A DNA stretch of 26,481 nt from a virus. The notes under the pieces were generated by a model, which was given only the letters and a program-made list of their open reading frames with translations, did no database searches and was not told the DNA's origin. Location: the IMG/VR virus record IMGVR_UViG_3300009183_000322, positions 1-26,481 of that record. One strand, 5' to 3'. Of the stretch, positions 245 to 26,481 are shown piece after piece; the stretch's first letter is position 1; each line of letters begins with the position of its first letter. Position numbers and translations under genes: made by a program.

Positions 245-274
245 TACTATAAAACATTATTTTAATGTATAGTA
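245..274 (+). repeat. Interrupted inverted repeat overlapping a -10 box
   Basis: Arms TACTAT (245-250) and ATAGTA (269-274) enclose ACATTA (254-259) and TAATGT (263-268), a 12-bp dyad with a 3-nt bulge and a 3-nt loop. The right end overlaps the -10 box at 273-278. It could be an operator or a weak hairpin between genes. No T-run follows, so a classical terminator is unlikely. Confidence 0.45.
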
Positions 275-278
275 TAAT
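273..278 (+). promoter_or_regulatory. -10 box (TATAAT) of a leaderless promoter
   Basis: A perfect TATAAT lies 6 nt before the ATG at 285, so transcription should start at or next to the start codon. No good -35 is seen at the expected distance, and there is no Shine-Dalgarno before the ATG. Confidence 0.6.
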
Positions 279-284
279 ATTAAT

Positions 285-470
285 ATGAGAAAGTTGACCT
301 CAGCCCTACTTTGCGGTATACTTGTAATAAGCCTTTCTGCTTGTTCAAGTCGCTACAGGTATGCCTGTCAAGACCCAGCAAACTGGAAAGAAACAAAGTG
401 CATTCCGCCAGAGTGTGAAGCAAGCGGAGTGTGCACAAAAGATTTAGTAAAGGAAACTGACAATGGGTAA
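285..470 (+). CDS. Small lipoprotein
   Basis: A 61-residue protein with a classical lipoprotein signal: basic N-terminus (MRK), hydrophobic core and lipobox LSAC, which predicts lipidation at Cys20. The mature part is short (about 42 residues) and has four further cysteines (Cys28, 39, 44 and 50) in a Pro-rich segment (CIPPECEASGVC), so two disulfides are possible outside the membrane. It overlaps the next gene by 8 nt. An Rz1-like spanin role would be odd for a single-membrane host. A lysis accessory or surface lipoprotein is a guess from position. Confidence 0.75.
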   Translation: MRKLTSALLCGILVISLSACSSRYRYACQDPANWKETKCIPPECEASGVCTKDLVKETDNG

Positions 471-867
471 ACGTAGAACGCAAGCAGAACTAGATGGTTT
501 ATTAAAGTTTGTATTAGGTCTTACTTTAGGAGCAATTTTATTCTTTACAACAATGGGTATTTTATATGCCCTCGTTTTTGTTGAGCAACCACTAACTGGT
601 CAATCTGAAAACGACAAAATGTTTTTTAATGTTTTGGGTAGCGTAGCAACTTTTATTACTGGAACGCTTGCAGGTATTTTAATTGGTCAGTCTGGTGCAA
701 AAGATATTATGGATGCACAGTTGTCTAATAAAGAAATGGATTCTAAAAATACATTAGCAGATAAAAAACTTGAATCAGAAATTGACGAAGCAAAGGCACG
801 GAGATTAAATAAACCTGACGGCGCAATGCCAGAAGAACAACCAGTCGATACAGATTGGGATAAATAA
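463..867 (+). CDS. Putative holin, two membrane helices and coiled-coil tail
   Basis: A 134-residue protein. After a basic N-terminus there are two hydrophobic segments (about residues 15-40 and 53-75), then a highly charged helical region (about 78-115) with coiled-coil character and an acidic tail. It ends one base into the start codon of the CHAP endolysin (TAATG), so the two are translationally coupled. The topology and the immediate endolysin partner make a holin the best guess. No recognised holin family signature is visible, and the membrane protein at 68 is an alternative. Confidence 0.7.
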   Translation: MGKRRTQAELDGLLKFVLGLTLGAILFFTTMGILYALVFVEQPLTGQSENDKMFFNVLGSVATFITGTLAGILIGQSGAKDIMDAQLSNKEMDSKNTLADKKLESEIDEAKARRLNKPDGAMPEEQPVDTDWDK

Positions 868-1454
868 TGGCGGAGCAAGGTACAGCAGCACGACTTATTG
901 AAGTTGCCCAAGCCGAAGTAGGAACTGTTGAAGGTCCTAAAGATAATGAAACAAAGTATGGAGCATATACTAAAGCCAATTTCCAACCATGGTGCGGATC
1001 TTTTGTAAATTGGTGCGGGAATGAAGCAGGAGTAAAAATTCCTAATACTGTTTACACTCCTGGTGGCGCAGCAGCATTTAAAAAGTCTGGTCAATGGATT
1101 GACGTAGATGTTGCAGATCCAGAGCCAGGAGATATTGCATACTTTGATTTCCCATCTGACGGGGTAGATAGAATATCCCATGTAGCAATTGTTGTTAAAG
1201 ATAATGAAGATGGAACAGTCTGGTGTGTTGAAGGAAATACTTCAGGAGATCCGAAAGGTAGTCAACGTAATGGTGGAGAGGTTTGTAAAAAACTTCGTGC
1301 TTACAAGAAAAATAAAAAAGGAATTCTTATTTCTATTGTGGGTTTTGGCAGGCCTAAATTTGGTGCCTCTGCATCAAAAACACCAGCAGCCCCTGTAAAA
1401 AAGGGTACTGCTAAACCAAAAACATGCTCAGCGTGTGGGCAAACCATTAAATAA
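867..1454 (+). CDS. CHAP-domain endolysin
   Basis: A 195-residue cell-wall hydrolase with a CHAP (NlpC/P60-type) amidase/peptidase fold. The catalytic Cys is Cys43 in PWCGSFVNWC, the His is His105 in RISHVAIV, and the third residue is probably Glu122 in CVEGN. Such enzymes cut peptide or amide bonds in peptidoglycan at the end of infection. The C-terminus is a Lys/Pro/Ala linker followed by a CSACGQ knuckle (Cys187 and Cys190). That could be half of a zinc ribbon or a wall-binding tail, and it lacks a second Cys pair. There is no signal peptide, so export would need the holin encoded just upstream. Confidence 0.9.
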   Translation: MAEQGTAARLIEVAQAEVGTVEGPKDNETKYGAYTKANFQPWCGSFVNWCGNEAGVKIPNTVYTPGGAAAFKKSGQWIDVDVADPEPGDIAYFDFPSDGVDRISHVAIVVKDNEDGTVWCVEGNTSGDPKGSQRNGGEVCKKLRAYKKNKKGILISIVGFGRPKFGASASKTPAAPVKKGTAKPKTCSACGQTIK

Positions 1455-1460
1455 TAGTAG

Positions 1461-1488
1461 TTGACAAGCAAAAATTTTTTGGTATACT
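1461..1488 (+). promoter_or_regulatory. Sigma70-type promoter for the proteasome-like gene
   Basis: TTGACA at 1461-1466, a 16-bp spacer and TATACT at 1483-1488. Transcription should begin near 1495, leaving a leader of about 20 nt with GAGAGGA before the ATG at 1516. It sits in the gap after the endolysin and should start a new transcript. Confidence 0.75.
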
Positions 1489-1499
1489 TAAATATACCA
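1480..1499 (+). repeat. Inverted repeat over the -10 box, possible operator
   Basis: TGGTATA (1480-1486) and TATACCA (1493-1499) form a perfect 7-bp dyad with a 6-bp spacer. It covers the -10 box and the expected transcription start. A repressor dimer bound here would block the promoter. Confidence 0.5.
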
Positions 1500-1515
1500 G
1501 TTTGAGAGGATTCCT

Positions 1516-2037
1516 ATGACCATTATTGCCGTTGTTAAACAAGATGGTAAAGTTTTTATGGCAGGGGATCGTGGCGCTTCCGATGATGATAATATAATGT
1601 CTATTGTTGCCCCCAAAGTTTGGAAAACTGGCCCGTATCTTTTTGGATATGCTGGAACTATGGATGGCGAAAGAATTAGACATAACTTTAAGCCACCACT
1701 ACCAGAAGGAAATTTAGATAAATTTATGTATACTAAATTTATTAAATCATTAAGAAAGTTTTATGAAGAGTGGTGGGTAGACACAACCAAAGACGCAGAT
1801 TTTGGAATGATAGTCTGTATTCGTGGAAGAATATTTGAGCACAATGCAATTGATATGTCATTAACAGAATATCAACAACCATTTTTATGTATGGGTTCTG
1901 GCTCTGCGTATGCATATGGGTCCTTATACTCAACACAAAAACAAAAAAATCCTAGAAATAGAGTAAGGCAAGCAGTTGCATCAGCAATAGAATACTCCCC
2001 TTCATGTAAAGGGCCAATAGATACGGTGAGTGCATAA
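1516..2037 (+). CDS. HslV/proteasome-beta-like Ntn hydrolase
   Basis: A 173-residue protein that starts Met-Thr-Ile-Ile-Ala. Removal of the initiator Met would expose Thr as the N-terminal nucleophile. The HslV catalytic set is conserved at the expected spacing: Thr2, Asp18 in AGDRG and Lys34 in APKVWK, matching Thr1, Asp17 and Lys33 of HslV. The later GSGSAYAYGSLY segment matches the conserved GSG region of the family. Length fits HslV (about 175). No HslU/AAA+ unloader is seen nearby. It may self-assemble and process phage proteins, or use or interfere with a host proteolytic system; neither is shown. It has its own promoter and overlaps the next gene by 1 nt. Confidence 0.85.
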   Translation: MTIIAVVKQDGKVFMAGDRGASDDDNIMSIVAPKVWKTGPYLFGYAGTMDGERIRHNFKPPLPEGNLDKFMYTKFIKSLRKFYEEWWVDTTKDADFGMIVCIRGRIFEHNAIDMSLTEYQQPFLCMGSGSAYAYGSLYSTQKQKNPRNRVRQAVASAIEYSPSCKGPIDTVSA

Positions 2038-2244: not shown

Positions 2245-3678
2245 ATGATAATTTTAGGTATTAACGAAACATCCCACGATGCATCTGTGTCTTTAATTGA
2301 CAATAATAAAATATTATTTGCGGGTCATTCAGAAAGATACAGCAAGCAAAAAAATGATTGGTATGTAAACAATGATTTAATTAAAGACGCATTGTCATAT
2401 GGAAAACCAGACTACATAGCCTATTACGAAAAGCCACTTTTAAAAAAAACAAGGCTTGTATTAAATGGTGGCTTGGGAGATTGGAAACCAAAGTTTAATA
2501 TAGAGAACGTTCCAAGGGTATCATTTAAACATCATTATTCTCACGCAGCAGCAGGATATTTTACAAGCACCTTTGATGATGCCGTAATAGTTGTTTTAGA
2601 TTCCATCGGTGAATTTAATACGTCAACAATTTGGACTGGAGAAGGTTCTAAAATAACATTAAAAGAAAAGCACAACTATCCATTTAGTTTTGGTCTATTC
2701 TATTCCGCATTTACACAGTTGATTGGCCTAATGCCAAACCAAGAAGAGTATATTATGATGGGCATGGCAGCGTATGGTGATTCAAAAAAATACTATAAAA
2801 AAGTTAATGACTATTTCCCATCAATAAAAAAACAAAAATATAACTTTCACAAAGGAATTACAGACTGGGGCTGGGTTAAAACAGAACAAGATAAATTTGA
2901 TATTGCTGCAGCAGTGCAGGATGTATATAAAAATAGACTGACTGAGTTTATGCAACACGCACAAAAAATTACTGGCAAATATAATTTAGTCTTTATGGGT
3001 GGGTGCGCTTTAAACTCTTCAGCAAATACAGAGTTGTGGAATATTTTTGACGATATATGGATTATGCCTAATCCTGGAGATGCTGGGTCATCTCTTGGAG
3101 CAGCAGCAGCGCTTTATGGTAAACATTTAAACTGGGAAACTCCATACCTTGGCTATGATTTAGGAGGTAAATATCCAGTCAATGAAATTGTCAAGGGTAT
3201 ATTAAAAGATAAAATTGTAGCGGTAGCAACAGGAAGAGCAGAATACGGACCAAGAGCATTAGGCAATAGAAGTATACTTGCCGACCCAAGAGATCCTAAT
3301 ATAAAAGATAGAGTTAACTTAATAAAGCAACGTGAGCCATTTAGGCCGTTTGCCCCAGTTGTCATGGAAGAATGTGCAGATAAATGGTTTGATATGGATT
3401 TTACTAGTCCATATATGCAGTACACAGTAAAATGTCTTCAGCCAGAAAAGATCCCGTCAGTTGTTCATGCTGATGGAACCTCTAGAGTACAGACAGTTAA
3501 TCGCAACCAACATAGGGATCTTTGGAGAGTTTTAAATAAGTTTTATTTAGAAACTGGTGTGCCAGTTCTATTAAATACAAGTTTAAATATTAAGGGCCAG
3601 CCCTTGCTAAATGATGAAAAAGATATAGAACTTTGGGAAAAAACTTATAATCATAAAATTATAGTAGGTTTAATATGA
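2245..3678 (+). CDS. NodU/CmcH-type carbamoyltransferase
   Basis: A 477-residue enzyme that probably transfers a carbamoyl group from carbamoyl phosphate, via carbamoyl-adenylate, onto a hydroxyl, usually of a sugar. The N-terminal Kae1-like domain has LGINETSHDAS (His11) and the metal-binding HHYSHAAAG motif (His96, His97, His100), then LDSIGE. MGGCALNSS follows mid-protein. The C-terminal carbamoyltransferase domain has GRAEYGPRALGNRS, REPFRPFAPVV and LLNTSLNIKGQP. It is shorter than the usual 550-600 residues. It leads a run of overlapping genes and ends in an ATGA overlap with the next gene. The target is probably a phage-made glycan or a phage structural protein. Confidence 0.92.
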   Translation: MIILGINETSHDASVSLIDNNKILFAGHSERYSKQKNDWYVNNDLIKDALSYGKPDYIAYYEKPLLKKTRLVLNGGLGDWKPKFNIENVPRVSFKHHYSHAAAGYFTSTFDDAVIVVLDSIGEFNTSTIWTGEGSKITLKEKHNYPFSFGLFYSAFTQLIGLMPNQEEYIMMGMAAYGDSKKYYKKVNDYFPSIKKQKYNFHKGITDWGWVKTEQDKFDIAAAVQDVYKNRLTEFMQHAQKITGKYNLVFMGGCALNSSANTELWNIFDDIWIMPNPGDAGSSLGAAAALYGKHLNWETPYLGYDLGGKYPVNEIVKGILKDKIVAVATGRAEYGPRALGNRSILADPRDPNIKDRVNLIKQREPFRPFAPVVMEECADKWFDMDFTSPYMQYTVKCLQPEKIPSVVHADGTSRVQTVNRNQHRDLWRVLNKFYLETGVPVLLNTSLNIKGQPLLNDEKDIELWEKTYNHKIIVGLI

Positions 3679-4313
3679 ATAATTTTGATTTTAATATTTG
3701 GGAAAATTCTACAAAAAAATCATTTGTTTTTATTAATAAAAGATCTAATATAAAGAATGACTGGTTAGACTATGATGAAATTTTAAAAACAGAGTATAAA
3801 GATTCAATTATAAAGCCAATCAATAAATATATGTATAAATTATCGTCACCACCGAGATTGGTTTCGATTATAGACAACACAGTTACGTTGTGTCAAGAAA
3901 ACTTTGCAGAGGTTTTTTTGCTAGAAAAAAATAGTAAACTAGATGCCATAGAAAAAATACACATGAGACAGTTTTATAAATATGGAGAAAAAACTATAGA
4001 AAATAAAGAATGTTTTAGCGAAATTTTTAGATGGGCAATGACCTGGTTTATTGATTGCGATGGGATTGAAATCGACATTTCCAGACCAGAGGACTCTCCA
4101 TTTTATTTTTATGAGGAAAAATATATTTCTAGCAAAGAAAATTCAGATATTGTTGATCCAAAAATGCTACTTTTTCAATTTAAAAACAAAGGCTCACACA
4201 TGAAGCCAGACGGGTATGGTAGAATTAAAAGAGGGCAACCAGCCTACTTCATTACTTTTACCGCAGAGAATAATGTTGTAGCAAGAATTAAGGAGTTTTA
4301 TGGCAAAGATTAA
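3675..4313 (+). CDS. Unknown protein in the modification operon
   Basis: A 212-residue soluble protein that I do not recognise. Its ATG overlaps the carbamoyltransferase stop (ATGA) and its end overlaps the next start by 14 nt, so it is firmly in the operon. Visible features are a Trp-rich segment (FRWAMTWFIDCDGIEID, about residues 117-133), an acidic loop (SRPEDSPFYFYEE) and a C-terminal YGRIKRGQPAYFITF stretch. There is no signal peptide or membrane segment. Context suggests a role in sugar or protein decoration, or an accessory subunit of the carbamoyltransferase. Confidence 0.85.
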   Translation: MNNFDFNIWENSTKKSFVFINKRSNIKNDWLDYDEILKTEYKDSIIKPINKYMYKLSSPPRLVSIIDNTVTLCQENFAEVFLLEKNSKLDAIEKIHMRQFYKYGEKTIENKECFSEIFRWAMTWFIDCDGIEIDISRPEDSPFYFYEEKYISSKENSDIVDPKMLLFQFKNKGSHMKPDGYGRIKRGQPAYFITFTAENNVVARIKEFYGKD

Positions 4314-5028
4314 ATTTTATCCTTTTAGTAAAGAGACTCAGGCAATGTCTCCTGAGCCAACTCCCGCATCTAAAAATATTCCAGAGTGGTACAAAAAACA
4401 ACCAGCATACGGCACATCAGATGAAGAACAAATGTTAAAAACTGGAGGAAGTGCATCAACAGTAAAAAGATGCATGCCAATATTTGATATTATTAATAGT
4501 GGATATATTATATACATTCCTTGTGATATATATGTGGATGCAACAGATCCAAATAAACTAAAGTGGTCTGTGCCATCTTTTGCTAGTCAGGTAAAGCGAG
4601 AGTTAGTTTCTTCTCATGCTCCAGAGCAGGTATCTCACTACCCACTAAATGAAAAACAATATCATAAAGAAATTTTTAGAATTATGCCATTTTGGTCTGT
4701 TGGAACAGAAAAAGGCTATAGCACTTTATTTACTCATCCTTTTCACTCAGATGAATTACCATTTAGAACATTTGGTGGAGTAGTAGATACAGATAAATTC
4801 ATTACAGATGGTCACTTTTCAATACAACTAGAAAAAGGATTTAAAGGAGTTTTAGAGAGAGGAACTCCACTAGTTCAGGTCATTCCATTTAAAAGAGATA
4901 GTTATTCTATGGAGTTAGTTGATGTTGAGGAATCTAACAAAATTTTATTGTCTCAAAGACTTTTAATAAGAAGTAAATTTAAAAACTTTTATAGAAATAA
5001 TTTAAGGGTTGCAAAAGATTACAAATGA
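4300..5028 (+). CDS. Uncharacterised phage family protein, copy 1
   Basis: A 242-residue protein behind a good Shine-Dalgarno (AAGGAG, 4290-4295). It is a paralogue of the next gene. Both share an N-terminal PxPAxxxIPEWYKxxxxYG motif, a K-K/R-C-M/I-P-x-F-D-x-x-x-S-G-Y segment, a central GYSxLxTHPxxxxxLPFxTxxGVVDxD block and a late KGTPxxQxxPFKRDSxxxE block. The dense Trp, Tyr and Pro motifs suggest a conserved fold with a binding cleft. It resembles an unnamed family common in phages (perhaps DUF6065, from memory only). No function is known to me. Confidence 0.88.
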   Translation: MAKIKFYPFSKETQAMSPEPTPASKNIPEWYKKQPAYGTSDEEQMLKTGGSASTVKRCMPIFDIINSGYIIYIPCDIYVDATDPNKLKWSVPSFASQVKRELVSSHAPEQVSHYPLNEKQYHKEIFRIMPFWSVGTEKGYSTLFTHPFHSDELPFRTFGGVVDTDKFITDGHFSIQLEKGFKGVLERGTPLVQVIPFKRDSYSMELVDVEESNKILLSQRLLIRSKFKNFYRNNLRVAKDYK

Positions 5029-5753
5029 TTAAAAATAAAAAACTAACCTTTATTCCAACAATTCAAGACTTTGAAAATAAACTAATACCTCCTGTGCCAG
5101 CAATCTCTCAAGTACCAGAGTGGTATAAAAGTTTATCTTTATACGGGCCAACAAATAGTGAAAAAAATTTAAATCCAATAAACCATGTAGGGACAGATGG
5201 AACTTTTGTTGCAACAAAAAAATGTATTCCTTTTTTTGACGCACTAACATCTGGCTATTATTATTTATTAGAAGACGACCTTCATGTAAGTCAAAATGAG
5301 CACGGGTATCCAAAATTAACATGGAATGGAGATGTTATGTTAATTGACAAGAGACCCACCCTTGAGGTTCCAATCCCAGGAGATTGTCACCCAGTACATT
5401 TTGGAGTAAGGATGAATTGGTTTTATAGAACACCTCCAGGATACTCTGTATTAGTAACACACCCAATGAATAGGTATGATCTACCATTTTATACTCTTTC
5501 TGGAGTTGTAGACTCAGACTCTTGGGGCTTGCCAGTATTTTTTTCTTTTTTTGTAAAAAGAAACTTTATAGGAACTATTCCAAAAGGTACGCCAGTTATG
5601 CAATTTTTTCCTTTTAAAAGAGACTCTTGGGAAATAGAGGTTGACGATAGCAATGAGATTATTGAAGAAGAAGAATTTAAAGCAGAAAATAGAAGAACAA
5701 TAGTTACTGGATATTATAAAAAAGATATTTGGAAAAGGAAAAATTTTAAATAA
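5025..5753 (+). CDS. Uncharacterised phage family protein, copy 2
   Basis: A 242-residue paralogue of the preceding gene, with an ATGA overlap to it. It keeps VPEWYKSLSLYG, KKCIPFFDALTSGYYY, GYSVLVTHPMNRYDLPFYT and GTPVMQFFPFKRDSWE. It differs in the middle (about residues 85-125). Equal length and conserved blocks suggest tandem duplication followed by specialisation, perhaps as a heterodimer. It lies between the carbamoyltransferase and the glycosyltransferase. Confidence 0.88.
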   Translation: MIKNKKLTFIPTIQDFENKLIPPVPAISQVPEWYKSLSLYGPTNSEKNLNPINHVGTDGTFVATKKCIPFFDALTSGYYYLLEDDLHVSQNEHGYPKLTWNGDVMLIDKRPTLEVPIPGDCHPVHFGVRMNWFYRTPPGYSVLVTHPMNRYDLPFYTLSGVVDSDSWGLPVFFSFFVKRNFIGTIPKGTPVMQFFPFKRDSWEIEVDDSNEIIEEEEFKAENRRTIVTGYYKKDIWKRKNFK

Positions 5754-6686
5754 ATGGTAGACAATACAAATACTAAAAAAGAATGGGATAGCATTAATGT
5801 TGTAATGTATTCTTATAAAACTAAAGATGCTATAGATACATTGTCAGATTTAATGAAAAAAGTATCTGGCGATGTTTTTATTTTTATTCACTGGCATGAT
5901 CAAAATGCAATAGATAGATCAAAACTTCTTGAAGACCTGGTTAATTCCTATGAAAACTGTAACGGAGACTATTTCCATATTAACTGGGACAATAATGAAG
6001 GCGCTGTTGATTATAAAGATAATAGATTAAAGGCAACTGTTGGGGGCAAATATCACATGACGATAACGCCAGGAACAACATTATTTCAAAATTGGGATAC
6101 TGAGTTTATAAATTATGTAAAAGATAAAAATGTTGTTATTTCTGGAAATAAACAAGTAGCGCTTGATAACTCAAAAATTTTTTATGTAAACAAAACATTT
6201 AGCAATATATCAAACTATACAGTTACTAACTATATAGATAGAAATTTAATATTTGGAAACGTGATTATGATGAAAAATAGTAAACTTGGAGAGTATAATT
6301 TTCCAGGATGGCTAAAATATCATGGAGAAGAAGAAGTTTTATCTTTACAATATTGCAAAGATGACATAGAAATAGTTGCTGCTCCAACAAACCTGGTATA
6401 TATAAGTGAATATAGCACTCTTACCGATTTTAATTATTATGTACCATTTTCTAAATATCACAATTACAATCAGGTCATAAAATTATTTAAAACAGGAGCA
6501 AATGAGATGATAGGTAATCTAGGAAAAGATTTTGTAAAAAAGTTTTATGAAAAAAATAATTTTAATTTTTCAAGTTTGCATTGGTTGCCATTTTATGCAA
6601 ATGATGTTTCTTATAAAATTAGCGAGACATCTTACGATAGATTGGGCGGAAGAAGATTTATTAAACAATATAAAGAGGTGGAATAG
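5754..6686 (+). CDS. GT60-like (Skp1 GlcNAc-transferase type) glycosyltransferase
   Basis: A 310-residue GT-A-like glycosyltransferase. It begins with INVVMYSYKTKDAIDTLSDL and SGDVFIFIHWHDQ, like the first Rossmann half of the family. The KYHMTITPGTTLFQNWDTEFI region aligns with the family block whose consensus is roughly YxLQIDSHMRFxxxWD. The later YHGEEEVLSLQYCKD segment matches the GEE catalytic region. The metal-binding D-S-H of GT60 enzymes reads T-P-G here, so metal use or activity may differ. GT60 enzymes add GlcNAc to hydroxyproline in eukaryotic Skp1. Its stop lies one base before the start of a prolyl-hydroxylase-like oxygenase. The family call is by motif memory only. Confidence 0.68.
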   Translation: MVDNTNTKKEWDSINVVMYSYKTKDAIDTLSDLMKKVSGDVFIFIHWHDQNAIDRSKLLEDLVNSYENCNGDYFHINWDNNEGAVDYKDNRLKATVGGKYHMTITPGTTLFQNWDTEFINYVKDKNVVISGNKQVALDNSKIFYVNKTFSNISNYTVTNYIDRNLIFGNVIMMKNSKLGEYNFPGWLKYHGEEEVLSLQYCKDDIEIVAAPTNLVYISEYSTLTDFNYYVPFSKYHNYNQVIKLFKTGANEMIGNLGKDFVKKFYEKNNFNFSSLHWLPFYANDVSYKISETSYDRLGGRRFIKQYKEVE

Positions 6687-6687
6687 T

Positions 6688-7236
6688 ATGCATAGAATTT
6701 CTGTTATTGAAGATTTTATTCAAGAAGAAGATGCTTTAAAATTAATTTCAGAGATGAACAATCCCTCTGAAACAAACCCTTATCCAGAGTATTATAAAAA
6801 AAGATATGGAGGTACTGCGCTTCCTTATAACGATAGTGTAATGAATATTTTAATTAAGTACGGGCACAAAACTAACAACATTCATAAATCATTAAATGGA
6901 TATTTAAACAATATATATGTATTTAAGGCATTCGGATCCCACTGGACCGCTGGAACTAAAGGTGATTTACATATAGACGCCCAAGGCCCAGAGCCATTTA
7001 TTGAGTGGAGCACTATAATGTATCTTAATGATCCCTCAGAATATCAAGGTGGAGAAATTTATTTCCCTAATCAAGGATTTACCTATAAACCTAAAAAATT
7101 TTCTGCTGTGTTTTTCCCTAGCGCTGGAACAGAATATATTCATGGAATAACAGAGATTGAGTCTGGACATAGGTATACTGCTCTTTATATGCATACATCG
7201 TTAAAACAATATTCAGATCCAGATTTTTTAAAATAA
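6688..7236 (+). CDS. Fe(II)/2OG oxygenase, prolyl-4-hydroxylase type (1)
   Basis: A 182-residue oxygenase. The start at 6688 has a Shine-Dalgarno (AAAGAGGTGG) and follows the previous stop. A longer in-frame start at 6547 lies inside the upstream gene and is rejected. The double-stranded beta-helix motifs are present: iron ligands His95 and Asp97 (LHID), the conserved YQGGEIYFP turn, distal His152 (EYIHGITE) and the 2OG-binding Arg162 (GHRYTAL). Members hydroxylate prolines or other residues with O2 and 2-oxoglutarate. It directly follows the GT60-like gene, so it may create the hydroxyl which that enzyme glycosylates. Confidence 0.92.
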   Translation: MHRISVIEDFIQEEDALKLISEMNNPSETNPYPEYYKKRYGGTALPYNDSVMNILIKYGHKTNNIHKSLNGYLNNIYVFKAFGSHWTAGTKGDLHIDAQGPEPFIEWSTIMYLNDPSEYQGGEIYFPNQGFTYKPKKFSAVFFPSAGTEYIHGITEIESGHRYTALYMHTSLKQYSDPDFLK

Positions 7237-7430: not shown

Positions 7431-7504
7431 GCACCAGTAGCCAAGTTGGTTAAGGCCCCGAACTCATAATTCGGATATCGTAGGTTCAAGTCCTACCTAG
7501 TGTA
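7431..7504 (+). tRNA. tRNA with CAT anticodon (Met or Ile2)
   Basis: A 74-nt cloverleaf with a weak acceptor arm, GCACCAG with CTAGTGT: one G-U pair at the end and a C-A mismatch at pair 5. The D arm is GCC/GGC with loop containing TTGGTTA. The anticodon stem CCGAA/TTCGG encloses CTCATAA, so the anticodon is CAT. The T arm is GTAGG/CCTAC with loop TTCAAGT. It could be elongator Met, or Ile2 if the C is lysidinylated. The 3' end overlaps, antisense, the stop of the gene at 7497-8192. Confidence 0.85.
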
Positions 7505-8192
7505 CATCTAATACATCGTAATGTGGATTTTCCAGCAACCCTGGTGTTGGAAAACTGTTAACTAATAAATTTTTTCTTAAAGATATAAAAGACTTATCCT
7601 CAGTAGAAATAAAATTAGCATCTGTCGATACTTTGCTTTTTTCAGATCCATATATTTTTACATCTGTTATTTTTTCCCCACCAATATTTGCAAAATTGCC
7701 ATATGTAGATCTAGGGAAATATGCGATGTCTAAGGATTCTTTAAGTTTATTTTTATTCATTATCATTGGAACGTGTATGTCGTAGTCAATGGGATCTTTT
7801 ATTCCAACAGAAACCAATTGTTTATATGTTAATTCTAAAAGTTTAATATATTTTGATGCCATGCCAAGTTCTTTGTACCTTTCAATTTTATCTATAAGAA
7901 GGCCACCGTGAAGTGTTGGGACTATTGATATTTTATTTAAAGCAAAAAAATCATCATTCATTAAAACAAAATTATTTGATATTTCTAAATGCTCTGATGC
8001 CACACGAATACAATTTCTAATATTTTCAAATTTACCGCCAACATCTTTTACATATATTAAATCTCCTATGTACCATTTTGGCCTATTCCCTATAAGCCAA
8101 ACACGACCTTCAGGCATATTTTTTTCAATTGATCTCAAAGAATAACGTAATTCTTCATTTTCCCCGTCACGGCAAATATAAACATAATCCAT
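7497..8192 (-). CDS. Stealth-like sugar-phosphotransferase / glycosyltransferase
   Basis: A 231-residue protein resembling the conserved regions of Stealth (capsular polysaccharide phosphotransferase) proteins. The N-terminus has ELRYSLRSIEKNMPEGRVWL, then IGNRPKW. In the middle is NFVLMNDDFFA (residues 74-84), like the NDD-x-F motif of the family. DIHVPMIMNK follows, like the late Stealth region with its conserved His. It is shorter than typical family members (over 300 residues). Such enzymes transfer hexose-1-phosphate in phosphate-linked polysaccharides. The start is leaderless, 6 nt after a TATACT box at 8204-8199. The last codons overlap the third tRNA. Confidence 0.75.
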   Translation of the reverse strand: MDYVYICRDGENEELRYSLRSIEKNMPEGRVWLIGNRPKWYIGDLIYVKDVGGKFENIRNCIRVASEHLEISNNFVLMNDDFFALNKISIVPTLHGGLLIDKIERYKELGMASKYIKLLELTYKQLVSVGIKDPIDYDIHVPMIMNKNKLKESLDIAYFPRSTYGNFANIGGEKITDVKIYGSEKSKVSTDANFISTEDKSFISLRKNLLVNSFPTPGLLENPHYDVLDVH

Positions 8193-8198
8193 TTTAAA

Positions 8199-8204
8199 AG
8201 TATA
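8199..8204 (-). promoter_or_regulatory. Extended -10 box (TGC-TATACT) of a leaderless promoter
   Basis: On the minus strand TGC-TATACT lies 6 nt before the ATG whose first base is 8192. No Shine-Dalgarno is present. It is back to back with the -10 box at 8213-8218, with 8 bp between them. Confidence 0.6.
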
Positions 8205-8212: not shown

Positions 8213-8218
8213 TATAAT
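8213..8218 (+). promoter_or_regulatory. -10 box (TATAAT) of a leaderless promoter
   Basis: TATAAT lies 7 nt before the ATG at 8226. No Shine-Dalgarno is present, and the region where a -35 would fall is the start of the divergent gene. Confidence 0.6.
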
Positions 8219-8225
8219 AAAGTAT

Positions 8226-18246: not shown

Positions 18247-18248
18247 CA

Positions 18249-18422: not shown

Positions 18423-18423
18423 T

Positions 18424-19122: not shown

Positions 19123-19137
19123 GCGTTATGGTTAATA

Positions 19138-19848
19138 GTGGTGATCAAAATTCCTAGAAAACCAATTGCTGCAGTCATCGGTCCATTTTTGGAAAATTTA
19201 AAGAATGACGAGATAGATTGTGCCTTTTTAATATCACAAGCACAACTTAATGATGCAAAAATTTATACCAATAGAGAAGAATATGTAAAAACATTTTCTA
19301 AAGGAATAAAATTTATGGAAGTAGGTATTGCTTGGGGGTATTATTCTGCCATTGTTGCTGAATTAACCCATCCATCTAAAATGACATTAATAGATCTGTA
19401 CAACAATCAATTGATATGCTGGTCTTGGAGAAAATTTGGCGAGTGCTTATGTGATGGGGTTAAACATACAAGAGATTATACTCCAGAAACACATCAAACA
19501 TATATCAAAGATAAATTTAAAGAATACAATGCTGAAACTATTAAAGGAGACAGTCAAAGCATATTACCTAAAATAACAGAACAAGATTATGACTATATAT
19601 ATTTAGATTTGGTAAATGATAGGAATATAATAAGAAAGGCATTGTGGGATTCTTCAAAATTAGTTAAAATAAATGGAATTATTGGATTAAATGATTATTT
19701 GATTTATGATGGAATTATAGACGATACTCCATACGGGACATTTCAAGTTGTTAATGAATTTTTAAATGATAATAAAAATTGGGTTGTTGATGGATTAGCA
19801 TTACACTCTTTAGGGTTTTATGATATTTATATTAAGAGAAGAGGATAA
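19138..19848 (+). CDS. Class I methyltransferase-like protein (copy 2)
   Basis: A 236-residue paralogue of the preceding gene. FMEVGIAWGYYSAIVAE (residues 59-75), DYIYLDLVNDRN and IGLNDYLIYDGI are conserved, and the C-terminal LGFYDIYIKRRG is identical to copy 1. The start is a GTG at 19138 (a second GTG follows at once); AGGAGG lies rather far upstream (19111), so the start is uncertain. Tandem duplication with divergence suggests two different positions or substrates. Confidence 0.8.
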   Translation: MVIKIPRKPIAAVIGPFLENLKNDEIDCAFLISQAQLNDAKIYTNREEYVKTFSKGIKFMEVGIAWGYYSAIVAELTHPSKMTLIDLYNNQLICWSWRKFGECLCDGVKHTRDYTPETHQTYIKDKFKEYNAETIKGDSQSILPKITEQDYDYIYLDLVNDRNIIRKALWDSSKLVKINGIIGLNDYLIYDGIIDDTPYGTFQVVNEFLNDNKNWVVDGLALHSLGFYDIYIKRRG

Positions 19849-19853
19849 ATATA

Positions 19854-20735
19854 TTGTTTGATTTAATTAACGAGGAGTCATGTTTTACTGATTTGACTAA
19901 AAATAAATTTGATTTATCTCAATTCTTAGGCATAAAAGAAAATAAAATATTATACAAAGCATCATCTGAAAAAGAAATAAGCGATACAGATAAAAGCGTA
20001 GAATATAAATATAATGATATGTTTTTTAGATCAGACAATTTCACAACTAATCATGATGGAATCCATATTCTGTTTAGCGGATGCTCAGAAAGCGAGGGTG
20101 TTGGCGATAATATAGAAAACGCCTGGACAAATCTTCTGTATAATAAAATTTCACAAGATACAAAATGTTCTGGATTTTTTAATCTTTCAAGATCTGGCTG
20201 GGGCTGGTCAAAAATTATTGCCAATGCTTTAATTTATTTTGAGAAATATGGTTATCCAGATGTATACTTTATTTTATTGCCAAATCATCAAAGGATGCAT
20301 AAATTTTATAAAGAAAATACAGAACATTCATTCTGGAAACATGAACAGTTATATCCAAAGGGATCCTACAAAAAGACTTCTAATAATAACAAAAATGAAA
20401 AGATTTTCTCAGAAGAAAAAGAATACAATGAAGACTTTATAAAATTTCTTCTTTCATGGAAACTATTTAATAAAATATGTACAGATAATAATATTAAATT
20501 AATTTTTTCAACCTGGGATGAATTAGACTCTGACAATATAGCCAACTTAAATATGTTTGACAATTTTTTAAATATGGACCTTAGCAATAATTGTGGAACA
20601 TATATAAATAAATGGTATGAAAATAATAAAAAAACTAAAACTGACCTTAAAAAAAGAGATGGTCATAATGGCGTAATTATTCATAATTTTTGGGCAGATA
20701 GTTTTTATTCTTCATGGAAGGGCTCACAAGAATAA
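19854..20735 (+). CDS. SGNH/GDSL hydrolase-like protein
   Basis: A 293-residue protein. HILFSGCSESEGVG (residues 71-84) is a block I-like motif with G-C-S for the usual G-D-S, giving Ser78 as the likely nucleophile. FNLSRSGWGWSK resembles block II with its Gly, and FILLPNHQRM block III with its Asn. RDGHNGVIIHNFW near the end offers Asp269 and His271 or His277. SGNH enzymes remove or transfer acyl groups on glycans. The start is a TTG at 19854 with AGAGGA upstream. It follows the methyltransferases and may trim or acylate the same glycan. Confidence 0.72.
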   Translation: MFDLINEESCFTDLTKNKFDLSQFLGIKENKILYKASSEKEISDTDKSVEYKYNDMFFRSDNFTTNHDGIHILFSGCSESEGVGDNIENAWTNLLYNKISQDTKCSGFFNLSRSGWGWSKIIANALIYFEKYGYPDVYFILLPNHQRMHKFYKENTEHSFWKHEQLYPKGSYKKTSNNNKNEKIFSEEKEYNEDFIKFLLSWKLFNKICTDNNIKLIFSTWDELDSDNIANLNMFDNFLNMDLSNNCGTYINKWYENNKKTKTDLKKRDGHNGVIIHNFWADSFYSSWKGSQE

Positions 20736-21246: not shown

Positions 21247-21275
21247 TTGACAAAACGCATTCAATTGGATATACT
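21247..21275 (+). promoter_or_regulatory. Consensus leaderless promoter of the protease gene
   Basis: TTGACA at 21247-21252, a 17-bp spacer and TATACT at 21270-21275. The ATG at 21282 is 6 nt after the -10. It begins immediately after the terminator. Confidence 0.8.
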
Positions 21276-21281
21276 TATAAT

Positions 21282-22121
21282 ATGATAAAAAAGATTTTAT
21301 TGCTCAGCGTACTTTTGTCCCTTGGAATAAATCCATCTTTTGCTATTGAAAATGGTGAAAAGGAAAAAGATCCTAGTAGGGTTGTTGTCCTTTATTTTGG
21401 GCAAGAATATCCTGGCTGTAGTGGATATTTATATGAGCCAAGAATTGTATTTACTGCTGCACATTGTTTGGCTGCTCCATATCCAGTAACACATGTTGGA
21501 TTTCCTAATAAAAGTACTGGTCTCAATGCAGCAAAAGTTAGTGTAGAAAGTGTCTTGTTGCCTGATGAGTATAATAAATCTTCTCCATATCAAAATGATT
21601 TTAGTGTATTGATTTTATCAAAACCAATTTTAATTACTGATAAAATTGTATTGCTTAATGAAGAAATAAAAAATAAAATACAAAGTGATAAAGTTCAGGT
21701 TAAAACTGCTGGGTATGGAGAGCAAAATTCTTTTGGTACCTCAAGGGAAACCATCAGAGATGCTCATTATCTATATGCAACACTTCTTGATATTTCTAAT
21801 GAAATTAACATAACCAATCCTTTGCCTGGTAGTGTTTGCAGTGGTGATTCTGGTGGGCCAAATACAATTATTTACAATAATCAAGAAGTTTATTTAGGGG
21901 CTACAAGTCATGGATTTAATCAGCCAAACTGTGGTCGATGGTCTGGTGGAGGATCAAAAATCCTACAGTTTGACCCAGTATATAAATTTAATAATATTAT
22001 AAATAAGGCTAAAGATATTGTTGGGCCAGAAGTTGTGGCTCCAATGGTTAAGCCTATTATAACAAAGCCTGTTGTTAAAAAGAAATGTGTTAAAATAAAA
22101 AACAATAAGTGCAAAAAATAA
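21282..22121 (+). CDS. Secreted trypsin-like serine protease (S1)
   Basis: A 279-residue protease. A signal peptide (MIKKILLLSVLLSLGINPSFA) probably ends after Ala21. The catalytic triad is His61 (TAAHC), Asp106 (NDFSVL) and Ser190 (GDSGGP). The mature protein would begin IENG at Ile22, the place where trypsin-type enzymes need a free hydrophobic N-terminus to pair with the Asp before the active Ser (Asp189). Cys46 and Cys62 may form the disulfide next to the catalytic His. A Lys/Cys tail (KKKCVKIKNNKCKK) ends the protein. The start at 21282 follows the promoter by 6 nt; a longer frame from 21216 runs through the terminator. Confidence 0.9.
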   Translation: MIKKILLLSVLLSLGINPSFAIENGEKEKDPSRVVVLYFGQEYPGCSGYLYEPRIVFTAAHCLAAPYPVTHVGFPNKSTGLNAAKVSVESVLLPDEYNKSSPYQNDFSVLILSKPILITDKIVLLNEEIKNKIQSDKVQVKTAGYGEQNSFGTSRETIRDAHYLYATLLDISNEINITNPLPGSVCSGDSGGPNTIIYNNQEVYLGATSHGFNQPNCGRWSGGGSKILQFDPVYKFNNIINKAKDIVGPEVVAPMVKPIITKPVVKKKCVKIKNNKCKK

Positions 22122-22126: not shown

Positions 22127-22789
22127 TTAGTCTAAAAGTTCATTCTTAAAATCAGTAAAACGTGTCCATAAAGATACTGTGTATCTAGCCGTTCCTTTTG
22201 TTTCTGTAACACCGTGCAAAAAGTGTAAGTTACCTGGAAAAAGAACCATCATTCCTGGCTCAGGGACAATTTCAACATTTTGATCAGGGAAATACAATAC
22301 TCCACCTTCGTAAGTATCATTTAAATATACAAGAATTGAAACGTGACCGCTCCATAAAAATGGCCAATGTTTTTCTTGTTCAATTAAAAGATTTCCAACA
22401 TCATAAATTTCTTCCTGAACATAATCAATAATATCTGTATGTGGCTCTAGATATGATCCAACTGGGTGAACAAAAAAGTCAAGTCCTCTATCTTTATTAA
22501 GTTTTAGACCATACAACTCTTCTGCCTTAGACCTTAGCAATGTATTATATTTATGAAAAAGCACTGATATAGGGTTTCTTTCAATATGTATTGAATCAAC
22601 TACCCAGTGATGTGTTTTTTCTTGTTTGGTATGGAGAACGCTATCTCCAAACTTTACAAACTCTTTAATATCTTCTTCTGGCATAAAATTACGTATGACC
22701 TTGATGGTGTCTGGCCCAGTACCAATAATTTTACTTATATTGTCTATTCTTTTTTCGGGAACATAACTAGAACCAGTTTGATTTGTCAT
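22127..22789 (-). CDS. Fe(II)/2OG oxygenase, prolyl-4-hydroxylase type (7)
   Basis: A 220-residue oxygenase. The start at 22789 is used because it follows a TATAAT box by 6 nt; an ATG at 22804 lies upstream of that box. The motifs are DTIKVIRNFMPEEDI at the N-terminus, His117 and Asp119 in EPHTDI, YLNDTYEGGVLYFP, distal His192 in FLHGVTE and Arg202 in ARYTVSL. It is a close paralogue of the gene at 23751-24395. It converges with the protease gene with only a few bases between them. Confidence 0.92.
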   Translation of the reverse strand: MTNQTGSSYVPEKRIDNISKIIGTGPDTIKVIRNFMPEEDIKEFVKFGDSVLHTKQEKTHHWVVDSIHIERNPISVLFHKYNTLLRSKAEELYGLKLNKDRGLDFFVHPVGSYLEPHTDIIDYVQEEIYDVGNLLIEQEKHWPFLWSGHVSILVYLNDTYEGGVLYFPDQNVEIVPEPGMMVLFPGNLHFLHGVTETKGTARYTVSLWTRFTDFKNELLD

Positions 22790-22795
22790 CTTTCT

Positions 22796-22801
22796 ATTAT
22801 A
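22796..22801 (-). promoter_or_regulatory. -10 box (TATAAT) of a leaderless promoter
   Basis: TATAAT on the minus strand, 6 nt before the ATG at 22789. It is back to back with the -10 box at 22810-22815 with 8 bp between them, the same spacing as at 8199-8218. Confidence 0.6.
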
Positions 22802-22809
22802 CACTATGA

Positions 22810-22815
22810 TATAAT
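22810..22815 (+). promoter_or_regulatory. Extended -10 (TGA-TATAAT) of a leaderless promoter
   Basis: TGA-TATAAT ends 6 nt before the ATG at 22822. No Shine-Dalgarno is present. Confidence 0.65.
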
Positions 22816-22821
22816 TTAAAA

Positions 22822-23463
22822 ATGGTATTCATTCTCCCCCTAGCCGAGGGCGCTCCAGACGTGATACCCCAAGAAAAAATAAATGGGGCCAAATTATACT
22901 CTACAAGGTATGAATTTTTAAAAACACTAGAAAAAAATATAAAATATTTAGAGGTTGGTGTGCTGGCTGGAGATTTTTCGGAAGCAGTAATTAAAGAGGT
23001 CAATCCAAGCATTGCTGCATTAGTTGATTCATTTCAATGCAAAGACTACTTTGCCAGTGAGTATGGCGGGGCAAGGTGGGAAATGGTAAGGGGAAACGAG
23101 CACTATAATTTTGTTCGTTCTAGGTTTAAAGGAATTGCCTCTGTAAGGATGTATAGGCAATACTTCGAAACGTTTGTAACGACCAATAGGCAAAAATTCA
23201 ATTTTATTTATTTAGATGCGTGCAATGATTACTTATCCGTTAGAAACTACTTAGAAAGGTCAGCAGAAATTATAGAGGATGGAGGAATTATAGGAATAAA
23301 TGACTACAGCATTTATGAAAATAATACTGAAGCAACAACTAAAGAAAGAATTGAAGTAGTGAAGGCTGTCAATGAATTTATTCGGAATACAGATTGGTAT
23401 GTGCATGCATTTGCACTTAATGACAGTTTAACTTCTGATATTTATATTAAAAAAATAAGTTAA
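22822..23463 (+). CDS. Class I methyltransferase-like protein (copy 3)
   Basis: A 213-residue, more distant paralogue of the two genes at 18424 and 19138. Motif I is YLEVGVLAGDFSEAV (residues 42-56), then ALVDSF, NFIYLDACNDYLS and GGIIGINDYSIYE. The C-terminus SDIYIKKIS corresponds to YDIYIKRRG of the others. The CWSWR-like Cys/Trp insert is missing, replaced by YGGARWEMVRG, so the substrate probably differs. It is leaderless, divergent from oxygenase 7. Confidence 0.78.
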   Translation: MVFILPLAEGAPDVIPQEKINGAKLYSTRYEFLKTLEKNIKYLEVGVLAGDFSEAVIKEVNPSIAALVDSFQCKDYFASEYGGARWEMVRGNEHYNFVRSRFKGIASVRMYRQYFETFVTTNRQKFNFIYLDACNDYLSVRNYLERSAEIIEDGGIIGINDYSIYENNTEATTKERIEVVKAVNEFIRNTDWYVHAFALNDSLTSDIYIKKIS

Positions 23464-23479
23464 ACTAAAAAATAAAAAA

Positions 23480-23629
23480 TTATTTATCTTTACCCTTATA
23501 CTCTCCATATTTTCCTAAAACTTGACGGATTTTTCCGTCTTTACCAATTCTAACTATCATTCCATTTTTAATTTGTAATGGATTAAAAGAATTACTTCTA
23601 CTATAACTACCAGATGATCTTTTTGACAT
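23480..23629 (-). CDS. Small basic protein, unknown function
   Basis: A 49-residue ORF in TAATG overlap with the upstream micro-gene. The N-terminus is Ser/Arg-rich (SKRSSGSYSRSNSF), followed by NGMIVRIGKDGKIRQVLGKY, which looks like a short beta-hairpin domain with a basic end. No function is recognised. Confidence 0.6.
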   Translation of the reverse strand: MSKRSSGSYSRSNSFNPLQIKNGMIVRIGKDGKIRQVLGKYGEYKGKDK

Positions 23630-23724
23630 TATTTAGCCAATAGATAAACTGCTGAAATACCAGAAAAAATAGCAATTAGTAAAAATAACGCTACTACGCT
23701 TTGACTTGCTTTTTTTAAGTTCAC
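23629..23724 (-). CDS. Single-helix membrane micro-protein
   Basis: A 31-residue ORF with a GTG start behind AAAAGGAGAC. It begins VNLKKASQSVVALF (the first V read as Met) and continues as a hydrophobic helix (LLIAIFSGISAVYLLA). It overlaps the next gene (TAATG). A TATAAT box at 23748-23743 may serve it. Confidence 0.6.
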   Translation of the reverse strand: MNLKKASQSVVALFLLIAIFSGISAVYLLAK

Positions 23725-23742
23725 ATTGTCTCCTTTTATATT

Positions 23743-23748
23743 ATTATA
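23743..23748 (-). promoter_or_regulatory. Possible -10 box for the micro-protein genes
   Basis: TATAAT on the minus strand, 18 nt before the GTG at 23724, with a Shine-Dalgarno in between. No good -35. The bases before it (ATAGTG) are the same as those before the box at 22796-22801. Confidence 0.45.
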
Positions 23749-23750
23749 CA

Positions 23751-24395
23751 CTATTCAAAATTTTTTATTTTAAAAAATACAGACAGGGCAAATCTTGTAT
23801 CGCTGGCAGGAAGAATGCCATGTCTATTCCACCAATGCCCAGGAAAAGATATTAACATCCCTGACTCTGGTTTAATTTTTAAATTATGATGTGGGAAAAA
23901 CAACTCTCCGCCATTATAATCATCATTTAAATAAATTAAATTTGATATATGACCGCTCCAATTATATTTTCTATATTTTTCTGGATCAACATCTAAGTTG
24001 TCAGAATGAACTGCAGTAACAAAGTTTTTTGTTCTTCCAGCAAGATAAGAATCAAAGTTTGTCGATGGACTTGCATATTCATCATAGTCTAACTCTATAT
24101 TAAAAAGACTTTCGGACTTTTCTTTGATTTTTTTTATGTATTCTAAAACTTTAGAATCCACAATGGCTGGATTAAATTTTTTATCCTCACCCCTACCATA
24201 CATAAAATTAATTTTATTCATAATTAATTCAATGTCTTTTTTAGGCATAAAGTTTTTAACTATTTTAATTGTATCTGTATCAGAGCCATGTATCTTGGTA
24301 AAACTATCTTGTTCAGGAATAAACTGTTTTGCATAATCATCTCTAGTTAAATCATCTGAAGAATACTCTGGTGACTCAAAGTAATGCTTATCCAT
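23751..24395 (-). CDS. Fe(II)/2OG oxygenase, prolyl-4-hydroxylase type (8)
   Basis: A 214-residue oxygenase, paralogous to the gene at 22127-22789 (shared DTIKIVKNFMPKKDI block). The motifs are His130 and Asp132 in AVHSDN, YLNDDYNGGELFFP, distal His192 in NRHGILP and Arg201 in DTRFALS. Its start overlaps the end of the small gene upstream by 8 nt. It is the last large gene of a minus-strand operon of very small genes. Confidence 0.92.
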   Translation of the reverse strand: MDKHYFESPEYSSDDLTRDDYAKQFIPEQDSFTKIHGSDTDTIKIVKNFMPKKDIELIMNKINFMYGRGEDKKFNPAIVDSKVLEYIKKIKEKSESLFNIELDYDEYASPSTNFDSYLAGRTKNFVTAVHSDNLDVDPEKYRKYNWSGHISNLIYLNDDYNGGELFFPHHNLKIKPESGMLISFPGHWWNRHGILPASDTRFALSVFFKIKNFE

Positions 24396-24997: not shown

Positions 24998-24999
24998 GA

Positions 25000-25005
25000 T
25001 ATAAT
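25000..25005 (+). promoter_or_regulatory. -10 box (TATAAT) of a leaderless promoter
   Basis: TATAAT ends 6 nt before the ATG at 25012. No Shine-Dalgarno and no clear -35, because the opposite promoter occupies that space. Confidence 0.6.
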
Positions 25006-25011
25006 GTATAA

Positions 25012-25344
25012 ATGGAAAGAGCATTACTATACTTAATATATTCTCCAGCGCTAAAGGCGTTCAAGGTTGGCATATCTAACCTATCTAATCGTAGATATTC
25101 ACAGCACAGGGTCAAAGGCTGGATGTTAATTGACTATTGGTATTTTGAGAATAGGGAAGTTGCTAGGTCTGTAGAGCAGGAGGTTTTAAAGGTTTTTCGT
25201 AATAGATTTCCTGGGCGGTACTTAAACAAAGAAGACATGCCTCAAGATGGGTATACAGAAGCATTTAGTAGTGAGAAGATATCGTCAAAAAAGGTTATAA
25301 GGATTATAAATAGTACAATAAAAGATATTAGCCAACTTGATTAA
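25012..25344 (+). CDS. GIY-YIG-like nuclease domain protein
   Basis: A 110-residue protein with a GIY-YIG-type core: LLYLIYSPALKAFKVGIS, where LIY and KVGI take the place of GIY and YIG, then Arg28, His32 and GW, and a likely catalytic Glu in SVEQEVLK (Glu55 or Glu57). It resembles the compact T5orf172/MUG113 branch. It may be a free-standing nuclease acting on host DNA or a homing-like enzyme. It is leaderless and its stop overlaps the convergent gene at 25341. Confidence 0.75.
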   Translation: MERALLYLIYSPALKAFKVGISNLSNRRYSQHRVKGWMLIDYWYFENREVARSVEQEVLKVFRNRFPGRYLNKEDMPQDGYTEAFSSEKISSKKVIRIINSTIKDISQLD

Positions 25345-25454
25345 CAGTTATGGGTGCAGCCACAATCAGGACATTCTCCTCCTGGAGCAGCATTACAGTC
25401 ATCACACCAATCTGGTGGGGTTTGTAGATATCCTGGAATATTTTTTTCACTCAT
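25341..25454 (-). CDS. Small Cys-rich zinc protein
   Basis: A 37-residue ORF starting 6 nt after a TATACT box. The first half reads MSEKNIPGYLQTPPDWCDDC and the second has CPDCGC and a terminal HNC. Cys17, Cys20, Cys29 and Cys32 can form a zinc knuckle, and Cys34 and Cys37 lie near the end. The consensus promoter, the leaderless start and the Cys spacing all support a real gene. Confidence 0.72.
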   Translation of the reverse strand: MSEKNIPGYLQTPPDWCDDCNAAPGGECPDCGCTHNC

Positions 25455-25460
25455 AGTAAA

Positions 25461-25489
25461 AGTATATCAAATTTCGGCGGTAAAGTCAA
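25461..25489 (-). promoter_or_regulatory. Consensus leaderless promoter
   Basis: Minus strand TTGACT (25489-25484), a 17-bp spacer and TATACT (25466-25461). The ATG at 25454 is 6 nt downstream. Confidence 0.8.
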
Positions 25490-25692: not shown

Positions 25693-25828
25693 TGTTTATC
25701 CAAAAGCACACAAAGTCTATGCTTAGATTATATCTGTCTACGCTAAAGCCTAATCCAAATCTACGGGGATTGAATCCAACAGAAACCCAAGTCCTATTGC
25801 TAACTCTCCATTCTTTATATTTAATCAT
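25682..25828 (-). CDS. Small beta-rich protein
   Basis: A 48-residue ORF in ATGA overlap with the upstream micro-gene. It has WRVSNRTWVSVGFNPRRFGLG, then FSVDRYNLSIDFVCFWINIEY. Alternating hydrophobic residues suggest a small beta-sheet. Similar short proteins with F-S-x-D-R-Y and F-W-I motifs seem common in phages. Function unknown. Confidence 0.65.
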   Translation of the reverse strand: MIKYKEWRVSNRTWVSVGFNPRRFGLGFSVDRYNLSIDFVCFWINIEY

Positions 25829-25926
25829 AAATTTATCTTTTCTTTATTCACGGCTTGCTTATAGCCTAATTTGTATGACAGTAGCACTAGTAAAACAATT
25901 GCTGATGAATGTAGTAAATAAAACAT
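25825..25926 (-). CDS. Single-helix membrane micro-protein
   Basis: A 33-residue ORF behind TTAAGGAGTG. One hydrophobic helix (LLHSSAIVLLVLLSYKLG) is followed by a basic tail (KQAVNKEKINL). It is the first well-supported gene after the promoter at 26042-26070. Confidence 0.65.
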   Translation of the reverse strand: MFYLLHSSAIVLLVLLSYKLGYKQAVNKEKINL

Positions 25927-25927
25927 A

Positions 25928-25987
25928 TCACTCCTTAATATAAGGGACAGTTTTAAGACTTGTCCAGGTCCTATCCTGATCAGTCAT
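25928..25987 (-). CDS. Possible 19-residue leader peptide
   Basis: ATG at 25987 opens 19 codons (MTDQDRTWTSLKTVPYIKE) and stops one base before the next ATG at 25926. No Shine-Dalgarno is seen. It fills the leader exactly and contains the ribosome binding site of the next gene, so it could control it by coupling. It may also be chance. Confidence 0.3.
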   Translation of the reverse strand: MTDQDRTWTSLKTVPYIKE

Positions 25988-26041
25988 TTATAGACGCTGT
26001 CAGGCTCTCATATTACGTCTTGGCTTTTGTTAAGCATTATA

Positions 26042-26070
26042 AGTATATAACATACTAAAAGGTTTGTCAA
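26042..26070 (-). promoter_or_regulatory. Consensus promoter for the minus-strand micro-gene cluster
   Basis: Minus strand TTGACA (26070-26065), a 17-bp spacer and TATACT (26047-26042). The start should be near 26035, so the leader before the gene at 25926 is about 110 nt, by far the longest in the window. That stretch holds only the possible leader peptide. Confidence 0.8.
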
Positions 26071-26074
26071 CTGC

Positions 26075-26080
26075 TATAAT
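26075..26080 (+). promoter_or_regulatory. Extended -10 (TGC-TATAAT) of a leaderless promoter
   Basis: TGC-TATAAT ends 6 nt before the ATG at 26087. There is no Shine-Dalgarno. It is 4 bp from the -35 of the opposite promoter. Confidence 0.65.
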
Positions 26081-26086
26081 GGCTTT

Positions 26087-26481
26087 ATGAGCAAATTATT
26101 TATGGTTGGAACTCCTATAGGAAATCCAGAAGATATGTCTATTAGATCTTTGAATTATATTAAAGAGGCTAAAAATATAGTAGCAGAAAACCCAGAAGAC
26201 TTTAAGAGATTTTTAGAATCTTTAAATATAGATAAAACTGGGGCCAACATAATGTATGCCCATACTTGGCCTGACCATATAGGGGAAGAACCAATCATTC
26301 GTAATGTCCTAGACCTATTAACATCAGGAGAGGATGTTTATGTAATTTGCGATGCAGGCATGCCAGGGGTAGCAGACCCAGGGGGAGCAATTGCCCAAGA
26401 ATGCATTAAACGTGGTATCCAAATAATATCAACTCCTGGCCCTAGTGTAATAATTTCATCTGCGGTATCTGCTGGTATCTC
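26087..26481 (+). CDS. RsmI-like tetrapyrrole-methylase-family methyltransferase (partial)
   Basis: The first 131 codons of a gene running off the window. It matches RsmI, which 2'-O-methylates C1402 of 16S rRNA in the decoding site: KLFMVGTPIGNPEDMSIRSL at the start, IVAENPED where RsmI has AEDTR, VICDAGMPGVADPGG (the SAM-site DAG-x-P-x-x-x-DPG motif) and STPGPSVIISSAVSAG. The change around AENPED and the different segment after it (residues 38-72) suggest an altered substrate. The start is leaderless. Confidence 0.85.
   Translation, partial: MSKLFMVGTPIGNPEDMSIRSLNYIKEAKNIVAENPEDFKRFLESLNIDKTGANIMYAHTWPDHIGEEPIIRNVLDLLTSGEDVYVICDAGMPGVADPGGAIAQECIKRGIQIISTPGPSVIISSAVSAGI

Follow-up and report, generated by a model that had tools for sequence, protein, structure and literature searches.

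The sequence studied was IMG/VR virus record IMGVR_UViG_3300009183_000322, positions 1-26,481 (hereafter the window, i.e., the whole 26,481-nt stretch that was analyzed), whose GC content ranges from 29 to 39% in 1-kb steps. It encodes a WhiB-like protein matching WhiB proteins of Streptomyces and Rhodococcus phages, a DUF7455 gene, a CHAP-domain endolysin, HSP20, a trypsin-like protease, a tetrapyrrole methylase and three tRNAs. Since the WhiB-like and DUF7455 genes mark it as an actinophage, the window is a fragment of a freshwater actinobacterial phage. The tetrapyrrole-methylase gene (26087-26481) is RsmI-like, i.e., of a 16S rRNA methyltransferase family, and its product shows ~35% identity to actinobacterial homologues. 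In addition, the regions 2245-7236, 10727-20735, and 22127-24395 hold carbamoyltransferase, glycosyltransferase-like and several 2OG-Fe(II) oxygenase-like genes (the oxygenases recognized by inspection), a set resembling the auxiliary gene sets of cyanophage.

An initial annotation had reported twelve start codons preceded by a -10 box with no Shine-Dalgarno (SD) sequence between. All twelve were found in place, eleven with the box at 6 nt and one (8226) at 7 nt; every start codon was ATG, and no SD-like 4-mer occurred at -20 to -4 of any site. Along the window, a small lipoprotein-like gene (285-470) would first start without a leader, from TATAAT-N6-ATG (273-287, plus strand). Next come TATACT-N6-ATG with a TG-extended -10 (8190-8204, minus strand), predicted to start gene 7497-8192 (PHROG 7999, unknown function) without a leader, and TATAAT-N7-ATG (8213-8228, plus strand), which would do the same for a glycosyltransferase-like gene (8226-10142). 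A 57-aa ORF follows TATGAT-N6-ATG (11908-11922, plus strand; TG-extended, with TTGTAA at 17 bp). TTGACA-N17-TATACT-N6-ATG occurs twice on the plus strand, at the predicted leaderless start of the DUF7455 gene (12936-12973; gene 12971-13186) and at that of the trypsin-like secreted protease (21247-21284; gene 21282-22121), and between these lies a TG-extended TATACT-N6-ATG (14395-14409, plus strand; gene 14407-15369). The remaining sites are TATAAT-N6-ATG at 22787-22801 (minus strand; gene 22127-22789, whose protein by inspection resembles 2OG-Fe(II) oxygenases), a TG-extended TATAAT-N6-ATG at 22810-22824 (plus strand; methyltransferase-like gene 22822-23463), TATAAT-N6-ATG at 25000-25014 (plus strand; gene 25012-25344, PHROG endonuclease family), a TG-extended TATACT-N6-ATG with TTGACT at 17 bp at 25452-25466 (minus strand; ~39-aa ORF) and a TG-extended TATAAT-N6-ATG at 26075-26089 (plus strand), ahead of the tetrapyrrole-methylase gene, which continues past the window end. 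Signal peptides, recognized by inspection, begin precisely at 285 (MRKLTSALLCGILVISLSACSS) and 21282 (MIKKILLLSVLLSLGINPSFA), which independently supports both start codons.

Eight of the twelve sites carry a TTGACA-like -35 at 16-18 bp and/or an extended TGN -10, as expected of sigma-70/SigA promoters, while 285, 8226, 22789, and 25012 have neither. The TGN extensions described at 8192, 11920, 14407, 22822, and 26087 are all present, and 25454 has one too. As for the four -35 elements claimed at 17 bp, those of 12971 and 21282 are exact TTGACA and that of 25454 is TTGACT, but 11920 has merely TTGTAA (4/6). The description of leaderless initiation "as a rule" agrees with ~12 of the 16 recognizable promoters but is a little strong, because by our own reading four promoter-bearing genes (1516, 10727, 11432, and 20920) have a leader with an SD. 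For instance, the HslV-like gene (1516-2037) is preceded by TTGACA, TATACT and a ~27-nt leader with GAGAGGA (1462-1518, plus strand), and the HSP20 gene (11432-11848, plus strand) by a long leader with a GGAGG SD.

The string TATAMT-N6-ATG occurred ten times in the window against an expected 1.51 +/- 1.24, a count attained in 0 of 100 dinucleotide shuffles, and all ten occurrences open a gene. Relaxing the hexamer to TATRMT gave 12 occurrences vs. 2.8 expected, the only one outside the reported sites (1648) being intragenic. The looser TANNNT-N6-ATG was not enriched in the window (41 observed vs. 34.6 expected), and therefore the signal resides in the near-consensus hexamers.

The initial annotation had proposed looking for the same spacing in related phages, and such a scan bore it out. 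Relatives were 80 viral loci (~1.13 Mb) obtained from an endolysin search, with gene starts predicted by a simple codon-based gene caller. Distances from TATAAT to ATG showed one sharp peak at 6 nt (179 vs. ~33 elsewhere), and TATACT behaved likewise (44 vs. ~17), while permuted hexamers showed no 6-nt peak in these loci. TATGAT had no such peak either (18 at 6 nt) and was rejected as a general member of the motif; 11920 is therefore the weakest of the twelve. Neither this short ORF nor that at 25454 has relatives among the viral loci. The peak coincides with predicted gene starts, TATAMT-N6 preceding 84 of 1302 gene ATGs vs. 13 of 5303 internal ATGs. An origin by chance, from AT-rich sequence and a post-hoc choice of hexamers, would be in keeping with the unenriched TANNNT string; nevertheless, the shuffles failed to match the near-consensus count, the peak recurs independently in relatives and in candidate hosts (below), and internal ATGs seldom have the motif, so that we consider chance ruled out, with a probability close to nil.

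The base at -1 was T in 75% of TATAMT-N6 starts in the relatives, vs. 21% at other starts, where A predominates; a T before ATG is consistent with transcription initiating at the start codon, on a pyrimidine/purine pair. SD motifs were found at 18% of these starts, i.e., no more than background (14-18%), compared with 55% at other starts. Start codons at 6-nt sites were ATG (137), GTG (6), and TTG (2), and TATAAT plus TATACT made up 84 of the 145. On average these sites also display TTGAC at -35 to -31 and TG at -15/-14. DSL-LC01 was rejected as a close relative since its GC content is 55% and signs of the pattern are weak (one TATAAT at 6 nt among 89 genes), and the isolated Nanopelagicales phages E7 and F5 (PMC10202952) were absent among the matches listed.

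Within the relatives, 59 of 92 strict sites lie no more than 25 nt downstream of a same-strand gene, and therefore a read-through mRNA probably exists. Conceivably, then, the promoters are real, but translation proceeds mainly off polycistronic read-through mRNA in an SD-independent manner, the leaderless transcript being secondary. However, several of the putative leaderless genes in the window head their units, including those of two divergent pairs, and the exact spacing and the T at -1 would have no cause to persist. We thus regard this explanation as improbable.

The initial annotation had made its reading depend on the spacing being preserved in relatives, and for five of the twelve genes the orthologues do preserve it; the counts are phylogenetically non-independent, near-identical loci having been dropped solely by requiring distinct upstream sequences. 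Among 54 distinct upstream sequences of gene-285 orthologues, with protein identity as low as ~44%, 45 had TATAAT at 6/7 nt, and in those chosen for 6-nt spacing T occupied -1 in 39 of 40, with variable flanks and spacer. A box at 6/7 nt was found in six of eight orthologues of gene 7497-8192 and in 22 of 33 DUF7455 (12971) orthologues. For gene 8226, all five distinct sequences had it at 7 nt; therefore, the odd spacing is conserved as well. Gene 14407 was less uniform, with the motif at 6 nt in 7 of 17 orthologues and missing in 10 of 17. For the remaining seven genes, the 80 loci contained either no orthologue or no conserved motif. In DUF7455 orthologues the box is often translated in frame, as "YN", ahead of the real start. 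One DUF7455 clade (L042, L050, L065, L072, and L073) has TATAAT abutting one ATG and 9 nt ahead of another. As GAAAGG lies upstream here, the box may double as the spacer of an SD, in which case two modes of starting would overlap.

For window genes that are not leaderless (463, 867, 11432, and 20920), the motif was present in none of the orthologues. Indeed, most SD-led genes remain SD-led in relatives, the HSP20 orthologues included. Of 55 orthologues of the HslV-like gene 1516, 14 are predicted to be leaderless, mostly in one clade at ~33% identity, while most orthologues, those of the clade near the window included, have a leader with an SD. Judged from their upstream regions, related HslV-like genes thus differ in predicted initiation mode, by clade.

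To approach the host, we compared the phage tRNA-Asn (7276-7349, plus strand) with bacterial genomes. It matched four genomes of a single Actinomycetes order at 86% identity along its full 74 bases, and no comparable match was present among ~290 other genomes of the class. This link, on which the host assignment rests, probably identifies the host order; its genomes are 1.0-2.2 Mb with 40-47% GC where sampled. The order fits Candidatus Nanopelagicales, a presumptive name; the isolate host of Nanopelagicales phages has 46.5% GC (PMC10202952). Two other markers were set aside: the RsmI fragment was uninformative (~35% identity everywhere), and scanning named genomes for DUF7455 turned up mainly high-GC actinobacteria. 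An exact TATAAT-N6-ATG was also a poor host test, since it yielded only 0-7 sites per genome and mimicked absence until TANNNT was used. With the latter, 66 of 367 gene starts in 400 kb of one genome (G013; background 3.8) and 66 of 406 in 400 kb of another (G012; background 7.0) had the hexamer at exactly 6 nt, i.e., 16-18% of sampled starts in the probable host order, and the peak was present in two further genomes (G008 and G015). The spacing therefore belongs to the host. Host -10 cores are degenerate (e.g., TAGACT, TAGGCT, TAAGGT), with TATAAT at only 1/66 (G012) and 0/66 (G013) of the 6-nt sites. The phage layout is thus mainly a known host habit and not a special phage trick; the difference between phage and host lies in promoter quality, near-consensus TATAAT/TATACT in the former vs. 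degenerate cores in the latter.

Because of the spacing, the initiator base, the depletion of SD motifs and the conservation in relatives, leaderlessness appears well supported and can be strongly inferred; the transcripts would begin at the start codons and be translated from these 5' ends. We put at roughly 0.88 the probability that the phage uses leaderless initiation in its host's own format, with a sharper -10, served by the host polymerase and ordinary ribosomes. According to this model, the phage would place a sigma-70/SigA-like housekeeping promoter with its -10 box ending 6 or 7 nt ahead of the start codon, host RNA polymerase with its housekeeping sigma factor would begin the transcript at the A of ATG, and an ordinary host ribosome would translate the leaderless mRNA from its 5'-terminal AUG. 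Genes deeper in operons, together with HSP20, the HslV-like protease and gene 20920, would rely on SD initiation.

The initial annotation had instead considered the regularity a striking phage peculiarity that might give access to a distinct ribosome pool. A phage-specific strategy, drawing on a separate ribosome population (e.g., 70S monosomes) or controlling the timing of expression, would be in line with phage promoters being far nearer consensus than those of the host, and leaderless mRNAs reportedly favor 70S in E. coli, according to a passage of PMC3890552 that cites earlier work. However, the candidate hosts use the same spacing, which is the published actinobacterial norm, and therefore a separate ribosome pool is unneeded; moreover, leaderless reporters in Mycobacterium smegmatis showed no translational advantage over leadered ones (PMC7148126). 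The layout as a phage-specific rule is accordingly ruled out, and we consider such a strategy very unlikely. Our preferred reading, leaderless initiation in the host's format, yields a rule of practical use (near-consensus -10, 6-7 nt, ATG) by which gene starts and promoters can be called in freshwater actinophages that are abundant but uncultured; these phages retain the host format yet sharpen the promoter. In the part of the literature searched, we found no description of this rule for freshwater actinophages.

The leaderless gene of phage lambda is cI. There, as here, a phage gene is translated without a leader, but lambda has a single such gene, whereas a dozen such promoters occur within the 26 kb of the window. 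A leaderless lambda mRNA is mentioned in the survey of Zheng et al. (2011; PMC3160421), which in Actinobacteria found TANNNT ~12 bp upstream of the start and >20% of genes leaderless. With the TA-led genes of Actinobacteria and Deinococcus-Thermus (PMC3160421) the phages share TANNNT with its first T ~12 nt upstream, the lack of an SD and the SD-led genes alongside: their -10-like hexamer is sharply placed, SD motifs are not above background, starts are AUG/GUG and the probable host order uses the layout widely. However, this phage lineage has near-consensus TATAAT/TATACT and an extended -10 where TA-led genes have a degenerate core. In Corynebacterium glutamicum, 33% of mRNAs are leaderless (PMC3890552), again with AUG or GUG at the transcription start, but those were mapped experimentally while the phage ones are deduced from sequence. 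The phage provides a new example of a known phenomenon, the actinobacterial leaderless layout.

The divergent pairs 8192/8226 and 22789/22822 have 33 and 32 nt, respectively, between start codons, and both -10 boxes fit back-to-back inside each gap. The 8192/8226 pair is kept in six relatives. Since two polymerases could hardly fire both promoters together, the members of a pair may be mutually exclusive in use. More broadly, it is a tentative and rather unlikely proposal that large phages of freshwater actinobacteria have two translational classes, leaderless with a near-consensus promoter vs. SD-led with a leader, and use this split to adjust relative expression or its timing in the course of infection, the HslV-like mode switches and 33-nt divergent pairs being part of the scheme. 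In the host DNA sampled, no equivalent divergent pair turned up with the identical strict hexamers.

A separate observation concerns the probable host order. One locus (L202:4669-8321; G029:C1, about 1459676-1463313) contains a 32-nt repeat in five copies of one orientation, and 14-44 nt after each copy begins an ORF whose start has TANNNT exactly 6 nt ahead of it. The RNase P RNA gene (RF00010, 8297-8643, minus strand) supplies the first copy, as its 3' end, and a 17-nt core of the repeat is present in 72 of 101 genomes from this order, frequently as 2-5 clustered copies. These results suggest a cassette-like island that has inserted at rnpB and whose genes bring leaderless promoters of their own.
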